From positions 1 through 39,838 of the forward strand of contig NZ_ATUT01000019.1 of the NCBI RefSeq assembly GCF_000420345.1: a DNA stretch of 39,838 nucleotides, given 5' to 3'. The position numbers and the translations under genes were made by a program. This document shows, one piece after another, positions 11,376-20,557 of the stretch (position 1 is the stretch's first letter; each line of letters begins with the position of its first letter). Origin of the DNA: Faecalicoccus pleomorphus DSM 20574. Lineage in GTDB: Bacteria > Bacillota_I > Bacilli_A > Erysipelotrichales > Erysipelotrichaceae. The notes beneath the pieces were generated by a model that searched no databases, was not told the origin of the DNA, and saw only the letters and a program-made list of their open reading frames with translations.

Positions 11376-14300
11376 TTACCTTTTTCTTCGCATCCATTGA
11401 AGAAATACGATCATACAGCCTAAAAATCCGGACAGAAAAAACCATAACGCATACACAAAATGCATCGATTTACCGGTTGGAATAGAAGGCTGTTTCTCAT
11501 TTTTTACTTTTATATGCAGACAAGATTTTTCCATTTTCTCCTGTTTACCATCGATCCAAACCTCGTGATTTCTGATTTCGATCTTTTGTACATTCTTTTC
11601 CAGCTGATATCCCTTTGGTGCTCTTGTTTCCTTTAGATACCATACACCTTCTGTAACTTCTTTAAACAAAGACATTCCTTTTTTCAGATCCGTTTGTCCT
11701 ACCTGCACTTGTTTTGTACAGGATGAATCTTCATACAGGGTAAATTCAAAATCTTGATTTGTTATTGTTTTCTCACTTTTGGCATCGATCTTTTCCACTT
11801 CTATTTCATAGAAAAATTCTACTTCAAAGCTTTGGTTTTCATCGTTTCCATCTTTATGTTCGGCCAACAAATGTCCTTTATCACAATACAGTTCTTCAAA
11901 TACTACATACTTTCCTTTAGGCAGGCTTTGTTTCTCAATCCAGAAAGAATTATCAACGAATCCCTTTTGATGATCCGGCACAAAGCTGATTTCATGAATC
12001 AGCTCTTTTTCATTGACTTTCACCGGTTTTTGCGTAGTACTATCAATAATCGTACCTTTTAATCGATATGTCTTTTGTGCATCCAAATCCTGAAAAAAGA
12101 TAGTGTCGCGAATCATAAAATCCTGATTTCCATTAAAAATCTTTGTCTGTTTCCCATTCGGTTGAACCGAAGTATCAATTGTGAGCTTTTCATTCTTCAA
12201 TGTTTTAGAAACCTTATAAGATTTTGTCATGTTATCTTTTGCGGTAAACACAAAAGCAATGGGCTCGTCAGCCAGTTTATATCCTTCCTTAGTCTGTATT
12301 TCCTCTAACTGATATACCGTTTTGCCCAATCCGATCGGCAGATTTTCGATACACAGCACCTGATCTTTTCCTAGTGCATAAATTCCCTCTTTGGCTGATC
12401 CCACATTGATCTTTTCATTGGCATGATATAACACACTGCCATCCGATGGATCCAGAATGTCCTCTTTTGCACGCAATACAAACAATACCTCTTGTTGACA
12501 TGTTTCAACCGGATGTGGCTCTTCAAACTCTTTTTGAAGTTCGATCGTAGCTGTTGGCTTTTCATTTTCAATGACGACTTCGACATAAGCATCCTCTTGT
12601 GAATCCTTTTCAGAAACAAAATCTTCTCCAATATCGACCCATACTGGCTTTGAAAGTAAAAGATAGCCTTTAGGAGAAACTTTTTCTTCGATACGATATC
12701 TTCCCGCCTTTAGTTTTAAAGGTATCGTCATCTTTCCCTTTTCCTCTTTGGCCACAAAAATACCTTGTTCTTCCTTTGTCGAATTGGAAGCTGTTTCAAA
12801 AGTATCGAAAATTTTCGGACCAATCTTCATGGTGACTTTTTGATCATTTTGATCAAAGATCTGAAATTTTGCCCCAGAATATACGATTTCTTTTTTGGTA
12901 TCCTTATCCTTTTTGACTAGTCGAAGATAATAATCGCTTGGTCGATTATTAATTGTATATTCCATCGGTTCCCTTTCATTTTCATCTACTGTAAAAGTGA
13001 ATGGTTCTTTTAAGATGTCCGTTTCCTTTTCCCTAGTCAACTGTTGAATCAGATACGTTCCATAAGCAAGCTCTCGACTGGTGACATTTCCTTTCTCATC
13101 GGTATGCAACAGATCCCATTCGTGATTGGTAAATGTATCTTTATGCTTCAAAGCCTCCTGTACGCTTCCATATTGATCCACATACTTTTTAAGCACAGCA
13201 CCAAACTGTGCGTTGGCCTCCGGTTTTACAATCTCCGTTGTACTCGCATCCGTGATAATCTTTTTTAACTGAAATCTTCCAGTCACAACAGAATCCACAA
13301 CCGAGAGTCGAACATCTTGTTGCGCTTTTACATCCGCTGTAATGATTTTAGTATTCAACTGATATCCTTTTGGTGCTTTGATTTCTTTGATCGAGTACGT
13401 TCGATCCGAAGGAAGTTGATCGAGTATATTACTCTGTAGATCATTCTGAATGGTCAGTGTTCCTACCTGTTTTCCGGTTTTATCATCGATTACCGAATAT
13501 TGAGCCCCGACCAAAGTAGCTTCTCCCTGTGCACGTGTACCAGTTTCCTGATCCCCTTTTGTGATCTGAATACTTCCCAATCGCACATGCGCATTCAAAC
13601 GAAGCGTCTGCGAAGAACCGCCGGTAATATATCCAACCTCCTGATAGCCATAAGGGTTCTTATAGGCAATGCTGGTTCCCTGAGGGACATAAAAACAATG
13701 CATAGAAGCACTTCCCTGCAAACCATCTTCTTCATCCAGCCACACACGAACCTGATTTCCATTTCGTTCCATTTTTAAAGTGCTCTGATCCAAAATATAG
13801 TTTTCAAAAACATGATTTTGATCGTTTAATGTCTGTGCAAATTCTTCTCCATATCCATATAAGACAATATTTTGACCTTGAAAAGAAACCGGTGTTTCCA
13901 TGACATGCAAACGTTGATTGATCAAATCGATCTTACTTTGGATTTCCGGATGAATGTTCGTGATCAATCCCGGTGTAATCTCCTGCCAGATTCGAATCTG
14001 TGTGGCATAGTCCATCTCCATGGTTTTATCATTCATATACCCATAGCCCAAGCTGGAAATCCATTCTAATTTCTTTGTCAATGCAGCATTTCCAAAATAG
14101 CTGGCCAAATCCATGACCGTATAGCCTCCATTTCCATTGGCAATCGATGACAAAGGTTGAAGACAATACACTTTTTGTCCATTTATACTTAATTTTGAAT
14201 AATAACTGGAACTATAGCCGGAATCCGTCGGTCGTGTCGTACCAACAGCCCACTTATCATTAGGATCGACATGCACTCCTGTTGGCGCTTCTACATGAAC

Positions 14301-14399
14301 GATTGCCGGACTTTGTGCCAATACAGATAAACTTTGTGTCATCAGCATACAAAAACTGAAAACCAACCAAATTGTTATTTTAATTTTCTTTTGTAACAT
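11376..14399 (-). CDS. thioester/SpaA/VaFE-type wall-anchored surface adhesin
   Basis: A 1007-residue secreted protein. The signal peptide probably ends near residue 28 (SVLA-Q). A thioester-domain pattern follows: Cys79 in VYCLQP and Gln134 in TQIRIWQ would form the Cys-Gln crosslink used for covalent attachment to host surfaces. Several SpaA/Cna-B-like beta domains follow, with repeated KEIKAPKGYQL, EEKVSPKGYLL, EEIQTKEGYKL and KETRAPKGYQL edges. Around 735-860 there is a VaFE-type domain (YVVFEELY...LLAEHKDGN) in which Thr743 and Gln856 are candidates for an intramolecular ester bond. The C-terminus has IPTG (973-976), a hydrophobic helix and RRKR, a sorting-signal layout without a full LPxTG. 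The start at 14399 follows GGAGG. No sortase or pilin gene is adjacent. Confidence 0.88.
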   Translation of the reverse strand: MLQKKIKITIWLVFSFCMLMTQSLSVLAQSPAIVHVEAPTGVHVDPNDKWAVGTTRPTDSGYSSSYYSKLSINGQKVYCLQPLSSIANGNGGYTVMDLASYFGNAALTKKLEWISSLGYGYMNDKTMEMDYATQIRIWQEITPGLITNIHPEIQSKIDLINQRLHVMETPVSFQGQNIVLYGYGEEFAQTLNDQNHVFENYILDQSTLKMERNGNQVRVWLDEEDGLQGSASMHCFYVPQGTSIAYKNPYGYQEVGYITGGSSQTLRLNAHVRLGSIQITKGDQETGTRAQGEATLVGAQYSVIDDKTGKQVGTLTIQNDLQSNILDQLPSDRTYSIKEIKAPKGYQLNTKIITADVKAQQDVRLSVVDSVVTGRFQLKKIITDASTTEIVKPEANAQFGAVLKKYVDQYGSVQEALKHKDTFTNHEWDLLHTDEKGNVTSRELAYGTYLIQQLTREKETDILKEPFTFTVDENEREPMEYTINNRPSDYYLRLVKKDKDTKKEIVYSGAKFQIFDQNDQKVTMKIGPKIFDTFETASNSTKEEQGIFVAKEEKGKMTIPLKLKAGRYRIEEKVSPKGYLLLSKPVWVDIGEDFVSEKDSQEDAYVEVVIENEKPTATIELQKEFEEPHPVETCQQEVLFVLRAKEDILDPSDGSVLYHANEKINVGSAKEGIYALGKDQVLCIENLPIGLGKTVYQLEEIQTKEGYKLADEPIAFVFTAKDNMTKSYKVSKTLKNEKLTIDTSVQPNGKQTKIFNGNQDFMIRDTIFFQDLDAQKTYRLKGTIIDSTTQKPVKVNEKELIHEISFVPDHQKGFVDNSFWIEKQSLPKGKYVVFEELYCDKGHLLAEHKDGNDENQSFEVEFFYEIEVEKIDAKSEKTITNQDFEFTLYEDSSCTKQVQVGQTDLKKGMSLFKEVTEGVWYLKETRAPKGYQLEKNVQKIEIRNHEVWIDGKQEKMEKSCLHIKVKNEKQPSIPTGKSMHFVYALWFFLSGFLGCMIVFLQWMRRKR

Positions 14400-14465
14400 T
14401 ATCTCCTCCACATCCTTAAAATTGATTACCCTATTATTAATTACGAAAAAGAATCAAAAAACTAT

Positions 14466-14497
14466 TAAAAAAAGTTCAGAAAATCTGAACTTTTTTA
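14466..14497. terminator. terminator of KE-tailed membrane protein gene
   Basis: Stem AAGTTCAGA/TCTGAACTT (14472-14480, 14484-14492) with loop AAA, flanked by A and T runs on both sides, so it is symmetric. The small gene's stop codon lies at its edge. Confidence 0.85.
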
Positions 14498-14872
14498 CTC
14501 TTCTTTCGTTTCTGTAGGCTTTTCTTCCTCTTTTTTCTCTTCTTTAGGTTCCTCTTTTATCTCTTCCTTTACCTCTTTTTGTTCAGGAACAGAATCTGGT
14601 TGATCTTCGGCTACGATCTCAAATTCTTGTGTTAAAGAATCGACCATTCCCAAAATTACCGCTAATACATAAAGAACGACCGCAAACATAAAAGGAGCAA
14701 AGGCACTATTGATCAGGTTGTTAACGATTTGTGAAACCGGAGCTGAAGAGCCATATGTCGTATAATACTGTGTAACCGAATCATACGTATAGAATAATAC
14801 ATACCCTGTATAAACTAATGCAAGCAATGATAAACCATACAATACTTTTTGTAACATCTTTTTATTTTTCAT
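14495..14872 (-). CDS. small membrane protein with Lys/Glu-rich tail
   Basis: A 125-residue protein of unknown function. Two hydrophobic helices (about 8-28 and 53-74) are separated by a Tyr/Ser-rich loop (YDSVTQYYTTYG). From about residue 88 to the end the sequence is almost entirely E, K and P with a few T, a disordered charged tail. With a lysine-rich N-terminus both ends are probably cytoplasmic. The ATG at 14872 has GAGG eight bases upstream and is preferred over an ATG two codons earlier. It is a single-gene unit with its own promoter. Confidence 0.75.
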   Translation of the reverse strand: MKNKKMLQKVLYGLSLLALVYTGYVLFYTYDSVTQYYTTYGSSAPVSQIVNNLINSAFAPFMFAVVLYVLAVILGMVDSLTQEFEIVAEDQPDSVPEQKEVKEEIKEEPKEEKKEEEKPTETKEE

Positions 14873-14902
14873 TTTCATATCCTCACTTGATATACAAAAG
14901 TT

Positions 14903-14931
14903 ATTCTACCATAAATGCCTCTTGTCGTAAA
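14903..14931 (-). promoter_or_regulatory. promoter of KE-tailed membrane protein gene
   Basis: -35 TTTACG (14926-14931), 17-bp spacer, -10 TAGAAT (14903-14908) with extended TGG. Confidence 0.65.
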
Positions 14932-14948
14932 AGTCATACCGATTTTGT

Positions 14949-14977
14949 TTGTCAAAGGCATCATTCTTCGCTATAAT
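14949..14977 (+). promoter_or_regulatory. tRNA-Leu promoter
   Basis: -35 TTGTCA (14949-14954), 17-bp spacer, -10 TATAAT (14972-14977), with the tRNA starting 13 bases downstream of the -10. Confidence 0.85.
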
Positions 14978-14989
14978 AAGAAAGCAAAT

Positions 14990-15075
14990 GAGGCCGTGGT
15001 GGAATCGGCAGACACGCTACTTTGAGGGGGTAGTGAGCTTAGCTCGTGTGCGTTCAAGTCGCATCGGCCTCACCA
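14990..15075 (+). tRNA. tRNA-Leu (GAG)
   Basis: 86 nt with encoded CCA. The acceptor arms GAGGCCG (14990-14996) and CGGCCTC (15065-15071) pair fully. The anticodon stem CTACT/GGTAG encloses loop TTGAGGG, giving anticodon GAG for CUC/CUU codons. The long variable arm (TGAGC-TTA-GCTCG) marks a class II leucine tRNA. The T loop reads TTCAAGT. It is a single-tRNA unit with its own promoter and terminator. Confidence 0.97.
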
Positions 15076-15083
15076 TCGCATTC

Positions 15084-15119
15084 AACCAGTCTTTTTAAAC
15101 AAGACTGGTTTTTATTTTT
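15084..15119 (+). terminator. tRNA-Leu terminator
   Basis: Ten-bp stem AACCAGTCTT/AAGACTGGTT (15084-15093, 15101-15110) followed by a T-rich tail (TTTTTATTTTT). It overlaps the end of the convergent rlmD gene; the minus side has no comparable T run. Confidence 0.88.
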
Positions 15120-16407
15120 CTAATAGACAAACACATTCTAAACCATTGGTATGACAGAACATATCCACCGGCTGTACCACCTTACAGTGATATCCAGTTT
15201 CTTCAAATAACTTTACATCTCTTACCAGTGTATTTGGATTACAGGAAATATAGACGACTCGTTTTGGATGCAGTCCGGTAATATGACAAATACCTGCTTC
15301 GCTTAATCCTTTTCTTGGTGGATCCACAAAGACAACATCTGTTTCTTCTTTATATTTTTGCACAAAAATGCTGGCATCTTCACATACAAAATCAATGTTG
15401 GATAATTGATTGAGTTGCGCATTCTTTTTTGCGTTTTCCACGGCTTCCGGTACAATTTCCACACCTGTTACTTTCTTGACATACGGCGCAATGACACAAC
15501 CAATCGTACCTACGCCGGAATATAGATCGATCACACGATCTTCCTTGGACAAGTTTGCCAAATGAATAGCCTGTAAGTAAAGAACTTCCATCTGTTTCGA
15601 ATTAACCTGAAAGAAAGATTTAAAATGTAATTGTATCTTTTGCGACATACATGTCTGGTGCATTGATTCTAAACCATAGAGCACACGATAAGAATCCCCC
15701 AGTATCACATTATCTTCACGATCATTTTTATTAAAAAGGATGGATACTACATTCTTAAAGCTTTCTGTAATCTTCTTGACCAAAGCATCCACATGATTCT
15801 CTTTGCCGATAAAAACGATCTGCACTTGTCCTTGCACATTGGATCGTATCAGTACGTGACGTAATGTCTTTGCACTTTTGACATTCATGTTTGCCTTTAT
15901 AAACTGATAAACCTCATTGATTTCTTTTGATTGAATCACGCAAGAATCGCAATCCACAATAGAATTGGAATGAGGTCGATAAAACCCCATATAGACTGTA
16001 TCATTGATGACTTGTATTGGAAACTGTGCTTTATTTCGATAATAAAAAGGATCTTGCATACCCAGTGTATCCTTGATCGTGCAATCCAGATGATTTCTTA
16101 TAAAGAGCTGGCGCACATACTCTGTTTTTATATCCAGTTGTTTTGTATAGGCAAGATGTTGAAAACAACATCCGCCACATTGGCTGGCCTTAGGGCACTT
16201 TGGCTCTACTCTATCCTTAGAAACAATCTGTAGTTCTTCGATCTTTCCAAACGCATATTTCTTTAAGACTTTTACGATTTTGATTCTTGCCTTTTCTTCT
16301 TTTAAAAGACCTGGCACAAAAACAACCTGCCCATCAATACGTACTACACCATAGCCCTGGTTGGTCACATTCAGACACAAAACTTCATAAATCTCATTTT
16401 TTCTCAT
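15112..16407 (-). CDS. rlmD: 23S rRNA (uracil-5-)-methyltransferase, RlmD/RlmCD type
   Basis: A 431-residue SAM-dependent RNA m5U methyltransferase of the RumA/TrmA family. An N-terminal TRAM domain (about 1-60) precedes the [4Fe-4S] cysteines Cys71, Cys77, Cys80 and a fourth in VDCDSC. The Rossmann methyltransferase domain has DLYSGVGTIG, FVDPPRKGL and the catalytic-cysteine motif YISCNPNTLVRDV. A C-terminal glutamate in TNGLECV acts as base in the family. In Gram-positives such enzymes modify U1939 and sometimes U747 of 23S rRNA; the target here is inferred. No SD precedes the ATG at 16407. Its promoter ends six bases upstream and shares -35 bases with the divergent marR promoter. Confidence 0.9.
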   Translation of the reverse strand: MRKNEIYEVLCLNVTNQGYGVVRIDGQVVFVPGLLKEEKARIKIVKVLKKYAFGKIEELQIVSKDRVEPKCPKASQCGGCCFQHLAYTKQLDIKTEYVRQLFIRNHLDCTIKDTLGMQDPFYYRNKAQFPIQVINDTVYMGFYRPHSNSIVDCDSCVIQSKEINEVYQFIKANMNVKSAKTLRHVLIRSNVQGQVQIVFIGKENHVDALVKKITESFKNVVSILFNKNDREDNVILGDSYRVLYGLESMHQTCMSQKIQLHFKSFFQVNSKQMEVLYLQAIHLANLSKEDRVIDLYSGVGTIGCVIAPYVKKVTGVEIVPEAVENAKKNAQLNQLSNIDFVCEDASIFVQKYKEETDVVFVDPPRKGLSEAGICHITGLHPKRVVYISCNPNTLVRDVKLFEETGYHCKVVQPVDMFCHTNGLECVCLLEK

Positions 16408-16413
16408 AGCGTT

Positions 16414-16442
16414 ATTTTAACTTTTTTTAAGTCTATTGACAA
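16414..16442 (-). promoter_or_regulatory. rlmD promoter (leaderless geometry)
   Basis: Minus-strand -35 TTGTCA (16437-16442), 17-bp spacer, -10 TAAAAT (16414-16419), six bases (AACGCT), then ATG. This is the clearest leaderless-type promoter in the window. Confidence 0.8.
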
Positions 16443-16463
16443 TCCTATCAAATGACATATAAT
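16436..16463 (+). promoter_or_regulatory. marR-ABC exporter promoter
   Basis: Consensus -35 TTGACA (16436-16441), 16-bp spacer, consensus -10 TATAAT (16458-16463). Five -35 bases are shared with the -35 of the divergent rlmD promoter. Confidence 0.88.
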
Positions 16464-16464
16464 T

Positions 16465-16500
16465 ATATAGCAAACTATATTTTTATATAGCAAGCTATAT
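16465..16500. promoter_or_regulatory. tandem palindromic operator, probably for the MarR protein
   Basis: Two copies of the inverted repeat ATATAG-CAAR-CTATAT lie at 16465-16480 and 16485-16500, with a 20-bp period. They directly follow the -10 box and cover the expected start site. This suits autorepression by a dimeric MarR regulator, two dimers on one face of the helix. The assignment to the adjacent regulator is inference from position. Confidence 0.72.
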
Positions 16501-16516
16501 TTTAAGGAGGTGTTGG

Positions 16517-16962: not shown

Positions 16963-18702
16963 ATGTTAAAAACATTGATGGCTCAAATCAAAGAATACAA
17001 GATCAATACGATCAAGTCTCCGCTTTATGTCATCATTGAAGTTATCATGGAAGTCCTGATTCCCTTTCTGATGTCTATTCTGGTCGATCAAGGTATCGAA
17101 CAAGGAAATATGGATATCGTTTGGAAAATCGGCGGTACTATGGTTGCCTGTGCCTTTATCGGACTGTGGGCCGGTGCACAAAGTGGAAAACATGCCGCGA
17201 TTGCCAGCAGTGGTTTTGCGAAAAATCTTCGTAAAGCGGAATATGAAAACATTCAAAAGTTTGCCTTCAGCAACATCGACCAATATTCAACCGGAGGGTT
17301 AATCACACGTATGATGACTGATGTCACCAATGTACAGATGGCCTTTCAGATGATCATTCGTGTCTGTGTTCGAGCCCCATTTATGTTGATTGCTGCTTTA
17401 GGCATGTGCTTCTTTATCAACTTTCAACTATCTTTAGTATTTGTCGTTGTCATTATCTTTTTAGGGATTGCCTTATTTGCGGTCAGCTTTGTCGTTCACC
17501 CTATCTTTGAAAAGATGTTTAGAAAATACGATGCCTTAAATGCTTCTGTACAGGAAAATATCAGCGGCATTCGTGTTGTCAAAGCGTATGTCCGCAGTAA
17601 ATTTGAAACTCAAAAATTTCATAAAGAAAGTGGCGATATTTACCACATTCAGATGAAAGCTGAAAAAATCCTGATTTGGAACATGCCTTTGATGCAGTTA
17701 AGTATGTATGGTGCCATTTTGATGATTTCCTGGTTTGGGGCGCATATGATCGTTGGTTCTTCACTAACAACCGGTGAATTGATGTCTTTGTTTACTTATA
17801 CGGCCAACATCTTAATGTCTTTGATGATGTTTAGTATGGTCTTTGTCATGGTCGTTATGTCCATTGCCAGTGGTGAGCGTATTGCGCAGGTTATCAATCA
17901 GAAAAGTGATCTGGTTTCTCCTGAAAACGGCATCAAAGAAATCAAAAACGGACAAATCGATTTTGAAGATGTTTACTTTGAATACACCAACATTCAAGAT
18001 GAAGCCAATTATGTCTTAGACAATATCGATCTGCATATCCCAAGTGGCTCGACTTTAGGAATCTTGGGAGCTACCGGATCGGCCAAATCATCATTGGTAC
18101 AGTTGATCCCAAGACTTTACGATGTAACTGGCGGAAGCGTAAAAGTAGCCGGTATCGATGTTCGTGATTACGATCTGGAAAGTCTAAGAAACAGTGTGGC
18201 CATGGTTCTTCAAAAGAACGTATTGTTTTCCGGAACCATTAAAGAAAATATGCGCTGGGGTGATCCAAATGCTACCGATGAAGAAATCGAAGAAGCTTGT
18301 AAATTAGCACAGGCCGATGAATTTATTCAGAAAATGCCGGATAAATACGATACGTACATCGAACAAGGTGGAACCAACGTTTCTGGTGGACAGCGTCAGC
18401 GTTTATGTATCGCGCGTGCGATCTTGAAAAAACCAAAAATCTTGATTTTGGATGATTCGACCAGCGCTGTCGATACTAAAACCGATGCCTTGATTCGTCA
18501 GGCTTTCATGGAAAAAATTCCGGATACGACACGGATCATCATTTCACAGCGTGTCAGTTCCATTCAGGACTCGGATCAGATCCTTGTGTTGGATGAGGGA
18601 CATATTTCCGGATTAGGAACACACGAAGAATTGTTGAAGACCAACAAGCTCTATCGTGAAACTTTCCAGGAACAACAGAAAGGAGGCAGTTTAAGTGAAT
18701 AA
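16963..18702 (+). CDS. heterodimeric ABC exporter subunit with degenerate ATPase site
   Basis: A 579-residue half-transporter: six-helix type IV TMD (about 1-310) followed by an NBD. The nucleotide site is atypical. Walker A is GATGSAKSS (Ala in place of the last Gly), Walker B is LILDDSTSAVD (Asp in place of the catalytic Glu), and the switch His is Gln (SQRVSS). The signature VSGGQ is intact. The same set of changes defines the non-catalytic partner in BmrC/BmrD- and TM287/288-type exporters. Its stop overlaps the start of the next gene. The substrate, perhaps drugs, peptides or lipids, is not determined. Confidence 0.93.
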   Translation: MLKTLMAQIKEYKINTIKSPLYVIIEVIMEVLIPFLMSILVDQGIEQGNMDIVWKIGGTMVACAFIGLWAGAQSGKHAAIASSGFAKNLRKAEYENIQKFAFSNIDQYSTGGLITRMMTDVTNVQMAFQMIIRVCVRAPFMLIAALGMCFFINFQLSLVFVVVIIFLGIALFAVSFVVHPIFEKMFRKYDALNASVQENISGIRVVKAYVRSKFETQKFHKESGDIYHIQMKAEKILIWNMPLMQLSMYGAILMISWFGAHMIVGSSLTTGELMSLFTYTANILMSLMMFSMVFVMVVMSIASGERIAQVINQKSDLVSPENGIKEIKNGQIDFEDVYFEYTNIQDEANYVLDNIDLHIPSGSTLGILGATGSAKSSLVQLIPRLYDVTGGSVKVAGIDVRDYDLESLRNSVAMVLQKNVLFSGTIKENMRWGDPNATDEEIEEACKLAQADEFIQKMPDKYDTYIEQGGTNVSGGQRQRLCIARAILKKPKILILDDSTSAVDTKTDALIRQAFMEKIPDTTRIIISQRVSSIQDSDQILVLDEGHISGLGTHEELLKTNKLYRETFQEQQKGGSLSE

Positions 18703-20557
18703 GACAAAAAACAACGGACTTTCTCGTATCATCAAAGTCACGATTTCAAATTATAAACTGGCCTGCTTCTTTATCTTGATCTTTATTTTAATTAGCTGTT
18801 TTGCCAATGTATATGGATCCACTTTCCTAAAAGATTTGATTGACGTGTATATCGTACCGATGTTAAGTCAGGATACACCGGATTTTGAACCGCTGGTACA
18901 AGCGTTATTGACATTGTTGAGTATTTATGTGGCCGGTATTCTTTGTACCTATTTATACAACCGTATTCTGTTGAATGTTGCCTTAGGTACCTTACGTGAT
19001 ACTCGTGACCACTTGTTTGAACATATGGAAACCTTGCCGATCGGCTATTTTGATACCCATGCACATGGCGATATCATGTCGATCTATACCAACGATACCG
19101 ACACTCTTCGTCAGCTGTTGACGATGGCTGTACCGCAGATGATCGTAAGTATCGTGACCATGATTTCCGTTTTGATCTCCATGTTGATTCTGGATATCCC
19201 TTTGACAATCGTTGCGATTGTGATGGCCGTTATCATGATCATCGTATCTCGCTTTATCACTTCCCGCTCCGGCCGATATTTCCGCGCCCAGCAGGATGAT
19301 TTAGGAAAAGTCAACGGATTTATTGAAGAGATGGTCGAAGGAAGCAAGGTCATCAAAGTCTTCTGTCATGAAGAACAAAGCTTAAAAGACTTTAATGTGG
19401 TCAACGATCAGTTGTTTAAAGCCAGTGCCAATGCGAATATGTTTGCCAATATTTTGATGCCGATCATCGGAAACTTAGGCTATTTAAGCTATGTTTTGAC
19501 TGCCATTATCGGATCCTTACTGGCACTTAATGGAATCGGTGGTTTAACGTTAGGTACAATTGCCGCTTTCTTACAGTTGAACCGTTCTTTCAATAACCCG
19601 ATTGGTCAGATTTCGCAACAGATCAACTCCGTTGTCATGGCCGCTGCCGGTGCTTCTCGTATCTTTGAACTGATCGATACACCAAGCGAGGTCGATGACG
19701 GAAAAGTCACTTTGACCAATGTGGAAATTCATGAAGATGGCTCGCTTAGCGAGACAGATAAAAATACCGGACATTGGTGCTGGCGTCACCCAAGAGAAGA
19801 TGGCAGTGTTGAACTGGTTCCATTAAAAGGGGATGTACGTTTCCACGATGTCATCTTTGGCTACAATGAAAAGAAAACGATTTTACACGACATCAATCTA
19901 TTTGCCAAACCAGGTGAAAAAATTGCCTTTGTCGGTGCAACCGGTGCCGGTAAGACAACGATCACCAATTTGATCAACCGTTTCTATGATATTCAAAACG
20001 GATCGATCACCTACGATGGTATCGATATCAAACTGATCAAAAAAGATGATCTAAGACGTTCTTTAGGTATCGTATTGCAGGATACAAACTTATTTACCGG
20101 AACGATCATGGATAACATTCGATATGGTAAACTGGATGCGACCGATGATGAATGTATCAAAGCAGCAAAACTTGCCAATGCGCATGAATTCATCAAGCAT
20201 TTAGATCACGGCTATCAAACGATGATCACAGGCTCCGGCACATCGCTTTCACAGGGACAGAAACAGTTATTGTCCATTGCCCGTGCTGCCGTTGCCAATC
20301 CACCGGTATTGATTTTGGATGAAGCCACTTCATCCATCGACACACATACGGAACGTATCGTGCAGGATGGTATGGATAAGCTGATGCAGGGACGAACAGT
20401 ATTTGTCATAGCCCACCGTTTGAGTACCATTCAAAACAGTGATGCGATCATGGTATTGGAAAATGGTCGAATCATTGAGCGAGGAAGCCATGATGATTTG
20501 ATCCAACAAAAAGGAACGTACTATCAGTTATATACCGGTGCCTTCGAATTAGAATAA
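18695..20557 (+). CDS. heterodimeric ABC exporter subunit with consensus ATPase site
   Basis: A 620-residue partner of the preceding subunit. The six-helix TMD (about 15-330) is followed by a roughly 40-residue insert before the NBD (TDKNTGHWCWRHPREDGS), typical of the BmrD/TM288 side. Walker A GATGAGKTT, Walker B LILDEATSSID and switch AHRLST are all consensus, but the signature is LSQGQ rather than LSGGQ. It thus supplies the working Walker site and the weak signature, complementary to its partner. The start is GTG at 18695 with AAAGGAGG upstream, overlapping the previous gene by eight bases. Confidence 0.93.
   Translation: MNKTKNNGLSRIIKVTISNYKLACFFILIFILISCFANVYGSTFLKDLIDVYIVPMLSQDTPDFEPLVQALLTLLSIYVAGILCTYLYNRILLNVALGTLRDTRDHLFEHMETLPIGYFDTHAHGDIMSIYTNDTDTLRQLLTMAVPQMIVSIVTMISVLISMLILDIPLTIVAIVMAVIMIIVSRFITSRSGRYFRAQQDDLGKVNGFIEEMVEGSKVIKVFCHEEQSLKDFNVVNDQLFKASANANMFANILMPIIGNLGYLSYVLTAIIGSLLALNGIGGLTLGTIAAFLQLNRSFNNPIGQISQQINSVVMAAAGASRIFELIDTPSEVDDGKVTLTNVEIHEDGSLSETDKNTGHWCWRHPREDGSVELVPLKGDVRFHDVIFGYNEKKTILHDINLFAKPGEKIAFVGATGAGKTTITNLINRFYDIQNGSITYDGIDIKLIKKDDLRRSLGIVLQDTNLFTGTIMDNIRYGKLDATDDECIKAAKLANAHEFIKHLDHGYQTMITGSGTSLSQGQKQLLSIARAAVANPPVLILDEATSSIDTHTERIVQDGMDKLMQGRTVFVIAHRLSTIQNSDAIMVLENGRIIERGSHDDLIQQKGTYYQLYTGAFELE

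Follow-up and report, generated by a model that had tools for sequence, protein, structure and literature searches.

A probable autorepressed MarR-ABC exporter operon sharing a -35 element with an apparently leaderless rlmD promoter in Faecalicoccus pleomorphus

We examined a 39,838 bp stretch of the Faecalicoccus pleomorphus DSM 20574 genome (contig NZ_ATUT01000019.1), referred to here as the window, in which a MarR repressor and a heterodimeric ABC exporter most probably form an autorepressed operon, back to back with an apparently leaderless rlmD promoter, any coupling of the two promoters being a probable by-product of compactness. The -35 element common to both promoters is real, rare in this genome and recurrent in related genera; it is not a rule of the locus. 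Two results were considered solid, namely the conserved, apparently leaderless rlmD in Erysipelotrichaceae and the twin MarR operator found family-wide, which can be used for annotating Erysipelotrichaceae exporters. An earlier note on this DNA had described the overlapping -35 elements and the duplicated operator and proposed a regulatory link between the two directions; the observation was confirmed, while its interpretation was partly supported.

Organization of the locus

The minus strand (15112-16407) carries a gene for an RlmD-type 23S rRNA m5U methyltransferase, which scored 370 bits with TIGR00479 (cut-off 183.55) and whose predicted product is of the housekeeping type. Since three genes of the genome exceed this cut-off, the match does not fix the target of the enzyme (U747, U1939 or other). 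The other two RlmD-family genes that pass the curated cut-off are located on contigs C2 and C9 (L113 and L114).

On the plus strand, a gene for a MarR-family repressor (PF01047, 16517-16960) lies directly upstream of two half-ABC exporter genes (16963-18702 and 18695-20557), and virtually every locus surveyed has exporter genes downstream of marR. The nearest solved relatives of the repressor are MepR and other MarR proteins, and its closest named relatives come from Faecalicoccus acidiformans and Faecalicoccus metagenome bins. As read from the sequence, the TM287-like first half has a Walker B with DD (ILILDD) and a switch Q (IIISQR), and the second half has the canonical Walker B DE (ILDE). 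We take the degenerate Walker B and the switch Q of the first half to indicate a heterodimeric ABC exporter with one degenerate ATP site. TM287/288, which likewise consists of two half-transporters and has DD in Walker B and a switch Q at its one degenerate ATP site, was among the best bacterial PDB matches.

The two promoters and their common heptamer

The predicted sigma-A promoter of the marR-exporter operon (16436-16463, plus strand) matches the consensus at 12 of 12 positions, with TTGACA at 16436-16441, a 16-bp spacer and TATAAT at 16458-16463. The rlmD promoter (16414-16442, minus strand) matches at 10 of 12, with TTGTCA at 16442-16437, a 17-bp spacer and TAAAAT at 16419-16414. Both -35 elements are housed in the heptamer TTGACAA (16436-16442), which reads TTGACA on one strand and TTGTCA on the other with an offset of one base, so that 5 bp (16437-16441) are common to both. 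The coordinates given for the two opposed -35 elements in the earlier note were correct, and their arrangement is conserved in four Faecalicoccus species.

Consensus promoter matches in the region were not above chance (7 found, 9.4 expected from shuffles), and conservation was therefore taken as the test of the promoters. All four Faecalicoccus species keep TTGACAA, both -10 elements and both operators, invariant or nearly so; the hexamers and spacing of the marR promoter are identical across these species and g42, and the heptamer does not vary within the genus, in contrast to the remaining spacer. What the sequence and its conservation establish is thus two predicted promoters, a twin operator and the gene order, where a match to the consensus speaks for promoter strength and is no proof of occupancy. 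Transcription of marR would start at about 16470, inside operator 1 and about 63 bp from the inferred rlmD start, and the marR gene has a Shine-Dalgarno sequence, AAGGAGGTG, at 16504-16512.

A conserved, probably leaderless start of rlmD

The main feature of the rlmD promoter, overlooked in the earlier note, appears to be a leaderless start. Exactly 6 nt separate the end of its -10 element from the rlmD ATG, which would place the transcription start at 16407, the A of the ATG, and no Shine-Dalgarno sequence was found before rlmD. A TANNNT hexamer was present at exactly 6 nt from the ATG in 17 of 23 RlmD relatives and at 8 nt in 3 more, against a mean of 0.94 per position at other distances (12-80 nt) in the same 23 relatives, and this position is kept despite strong divergence of their rlmD coding sequences. 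The conserved position of the -10, together with the lack of a Shine-Dalgarno sequence, strongly suggests that the rlmD mRNA is leaderless. When 16 divergent intergenic regions were scanned for promoters with no constraint, most had their best rlmD-side -10 likewise 6 or 8 nt from the ATG. At L057, rlmD is located elsewhere, yet it has a -10 of this type, also at 6 nt. In most cases, a Shine-Dalgarno sequence takes its place in the genes of more distant RlmD proteins.

Other genes of this genome appear to be leaderless too. Among 407 genes (440 kb of the same genome), 9 cases of strong promoters located 5-7 nt before an ATG with no Shine-Dalgarno sequence were found, with few at nearby distances, while starts bearing a Shine-Dalgarno sequence had their promoters mostly at least 20 nt upstream. 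Within the window, leaderless-type starts, each with a strong promoter ending 6 nt before an ATG that lacks a Shine-Dalgarno sequence, were observed for a hexapeptide-repeat transferase (11289, minus strand) and a GAF-domain protein (689, plus strand).

The same placement of the -10 for a start at the ATG, with no Shine-Dalgarno sequence, is described for leaderless genes of Firmicutes and streptococci (PMC3160421, PMC6431027), and 8.6% of the mRNAs of S. pyogenes are leaderless (PMC6431027). Leaderless genes among Firmicutes are concentrated in Lactobacillales and Mycoplasma (PMC3160421), whereas the rlmD described here belongs to Erysipelotrichaceae.

A twin MarR operator across the family

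Two 16-bp palindromes, both predicted MarR sites, were identified at the marR promoter, in agreement with the earlier note. Operator 1, ATATAGCAAACTATAT (16465-16480), lies over the inferred marR start (about -5 to +11), and operator 2, ATATAGCAAGCTATAT (16485-16500), is located in the marR 5′UTR, in an exact 20-bp phase with the first. The oriented upstream regions of 31 marR genes from Erysipelotrichaceae were scanned for palindromes of the ATAGNNNNCTAT type with at most one mismatch. Two copies were found in 27 of these 31 marR-exporter loci and at least one in 30, across many genera, with ATAGCNNGCTAT as the most frequent motif. The operators follow the marR promoter, and not rlmD, when the intergenic distance changes, and many marR-exporter loci with no rlmD still retain them. 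The predicted twin operator is a conserved and ordinary feature of the family.

The two operators are spaced by 20-21 bp, centre to centre, in many loci; another group has a spacing of 15 bp, and a few loci one of 12 or 39-41 bp. Strict helical phasing was therefore rejected as a rule, and cooperativity of dimers bound to the same face would not be general. Operator pairs 12 or 15 bp apart were seen in other genera (L019, L022, L023, L029-L032, L034, L035, L037 and L038), on which the placement of MarR dimers along the helix must differ from that on pairs 20-21 bp apart.

A wider MarR regulon was also rejected. The exact operator core occurs in this genome at these two sites only, and the 12 one-mismatch matches are fewer than those of the reversed control pattern (46 matches in all). 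As exact operators are found nowhere else in the genome, the repressor is most likely dedicated to its own exporter operon.

Rarity and recurrence of the shared -35 element

In 440 kb of the same genome, no strong promoters (score of at least 10 each) other than the marR/rlmD pair have overlapping -35 elements; 0.4 such pairs were expected by simulation at a cut-off of 10, and none was obtained in any of 8 simulations at a cut-off of 11. For comparison, we used 16 species in which rlmD and marR are divergent within 182 bp. The -35 element of the two best promoters is shared in 7 of these pairs (four from Faecalicoccus, two from genus g22 and one from g2), always with the same one-base offset. 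The sharing genera do not form one clade in the RlmD and exporter trees, which indicates that the sharing was gained or lost more than once. On the other hand, it is absent in the other 9 pairs, most of which retain both promoters and the operators, and the shared -35 was consequently rejected as a conserved rule of the locus. In the pairs with no sharing, the rlmD -35 is mostly found near 30-35 bp from the rlmD ATG with the marR promoter and operators farther off, although in some of them a pair of recognisable -35 elements in common was not found. In g42 (L014), the two -35 elements lie 12 bp apart. Across the divergent pairs, it is the marR promoter that shifts, while the rlmD -35 keeps its position.

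Related genera carry these promoters and operators, some with a common -35 and some with none, and so offer a clean natural test of whether -35 sharing, or mere closeness, is the cause of promoter competition.

Proposed mechanism and alternatives

In the mechanism that we favour, MarR dimers on the two palindromes would block RNA polymerase at the marR promoter, and a ligand would free MarR from the operators and turn the exporter on; MarR most likely represses no other operon. The rlmD promoter would be fixed in place by the coincidence of transcription start and start codon, with its -35 always about 30-35 bp upstream of the ATG, and the marR promoter of Faecalicoccus and certain relatives may have settled where the quasi-palindromic TTGACAA serves as -35 for both strands. 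Judging from the size of the polymerase footprint, the two polymerases are likely to be mutually exclusive, as the earlier note had assumed, so that strong transcription of the exporter would mildly depress rlmD and MarR binding would relieve this depression. In E. coli bidirectional promoters, the loss of one direction brings the other almost no gain when basal activity is low, whereas a strengthened direction represses the opposite one, with competition only when one direction is strong (PMC12825309). As the marR promoter has the full consensus, some depression of rlmD is expected upon exporter induction. The shared -35 is probably incidental to compactness and not a selected purpose.

It could be argued against the by-product reading that a single register in three genera, combined with rarity in the genome, means that the element is maintained for a reason. 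Under such selection the shared -35 would act as a toggle, where the repressed exporter frees the element for rlmD and induction shuts rlmD, making methylation and efflux inverse; we consider this unlikely. The exact register is kept in the four Faecalicoccus species despite a variable spacer, and it recurs in two more genera; the pair is the only one of its kind in the 440 kb, and marked competition is known at shared promoters with one strong direction (PMC12825309). However, the constant one-base offset follows from sequence economy, given that only TTGNCAA, here TTGACAA, provides a good -35 on both strands, and polymerase footprints would overlap in several pairs that have no shared -35, so that sharing adds little. 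With 9 of 16 pairs also lacking it, most of them with promoters and operators intact, selection for promoter coupling is unsupported. What stands of the earlier proposal, that MarR represses the exporter and thereby frees the -35 for rlmD, is an operator placed to block the exporter promoter and not that of rlmD; a conserved regulatory coupling through the shared -35 is not supported. The complete chain of events, in which release of MarR turns the exporter on, the shared -35 becomes occupied, leaderless rlmD goes down and 23S m5U methylation is lower during efflux, would be very improbable. If it were true, efflux and lowered methylation could work to the same end, as loss of RlmCD in erm(B) pneumococci leads to a higher telithromycin MIC (PMC4605293). 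This link to drugs is remote, and a role in the response to ribosome-targeting drugs, about which the earlier note had speculated, is unsupported: RlmD is of the housekeeping type, and competition would lower rlmD upon exporter induction, which amounts to an inverse coupling and not to a co-induced defence.

Two other readings concern the rlmD side. It is highly unlikely that the called rlmD promoter is not the working one, in which case rlmD transcription would begin farther upstream and the two -35 elements would overlap through a chance resemblance. Consensus matches in the region are indeed no commoner than in shuffles, and a weaker alternative promoter lies 22 nt from the ATG; but a leadered mRNA would have no Shine-Dalgarno sequence, 17 of 23 relatives with strongly diverged coding sequences keep the -10 at exactly 6 nt, and most of the 16 intergenic regions have their best rlmD-side promoter at 6 or 8 nt. 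We give hardly any credence to repression of both directions, including rlmD, by MarR on the twin operator. This would follow the precedent of AcrR, which represses both RNAs at the shared acrA/acrR promoter (PMC12825309), and the divergent region is short; alpha-CTD contacts, some 40-60 bp ahead of the rlmD start, might be hindered by an array of bound MarR. Nevertheless, the nearest operator edge would lie about 58 bp upstream of that start, outside the core polymerase site and too far to block rlmD, and the operators track the marR promoter as the intergenic distance changes.

Comparison with known systems

In its predicted organization, the operon is closest to PefR-PefCD of streptococci. 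There, the gene of a MarR repressor comes first in the same operon as a two-gene ABC exporter, PefR represses pefRCD, and two inverted-repeat operator copies of a genomically rare motif lie upstream (PMC2858704). The PefR operator, TAAAATAGTTCTCACGATAACTA, differs from the ATAGCNNGCTAT found here, and no divergent rlmD with a shared -35 was noted in the passages of PMC2858704 consulted. The heme ligand of S. agalactiae PefR is the alpha-5 His114, a residue poorly conserved even when two PefRs are compared (PMC8044140). The MarR protein described here has no histidine in its C-terminal 55 residues (none after about residue 92). With no counterpart of the alpha-5 histidine and with a different operator, membership in the PefR heme sensors was rejected.

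The protein itself is a MarR/MepR-type winged helix, MepR having a GTTAG signature, and the core TAGCAAGCTA is common to operator 2 and the SlyA consensus TTAGCAAGCTAA (PMC5797941). Unlike in SlyA and MepR, the sites are doubled here and serve an ABC exporter. SlyA membership was rejected, as the protein scored 44.4 bits against an NCBIfam equivalog cut-off of 120 bits.

As in bidirectional promoters with a shared -10, one quasi-symmetric element is read on both strands and the polymerases would compete (PMC12825309, PMC10268837). In those promoters the starts are 7-25 bp apart, whereas here it is the -35 that is common, with two separate -10 elements and the more distant starts given above, which places the pair outside that class. 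A limited literature search, which is no proof of absence, returned no clear precedent for divergent promoters with a common -35.

Divergence from Faecalicoccus acidiformans

Compared with the corresponding locus of F. acidiformans (L039), RlmD is 54% identical and the two ORFs beyond it 47-48% (11376-16407 of the window), while on the other side MarR is 74%, the exporter halves 89-95% and DegV 85% identical. An abrupt change in divergence coincides with the promoter region, and the left block may have been replaced by other genes or may have evolved fast. The far end of this block (11376-14411, minus strand) encodes a large surface protein; its SpaA-type, T-Q ester and thioester domains recall the architecture of an adhesin or a pilin.
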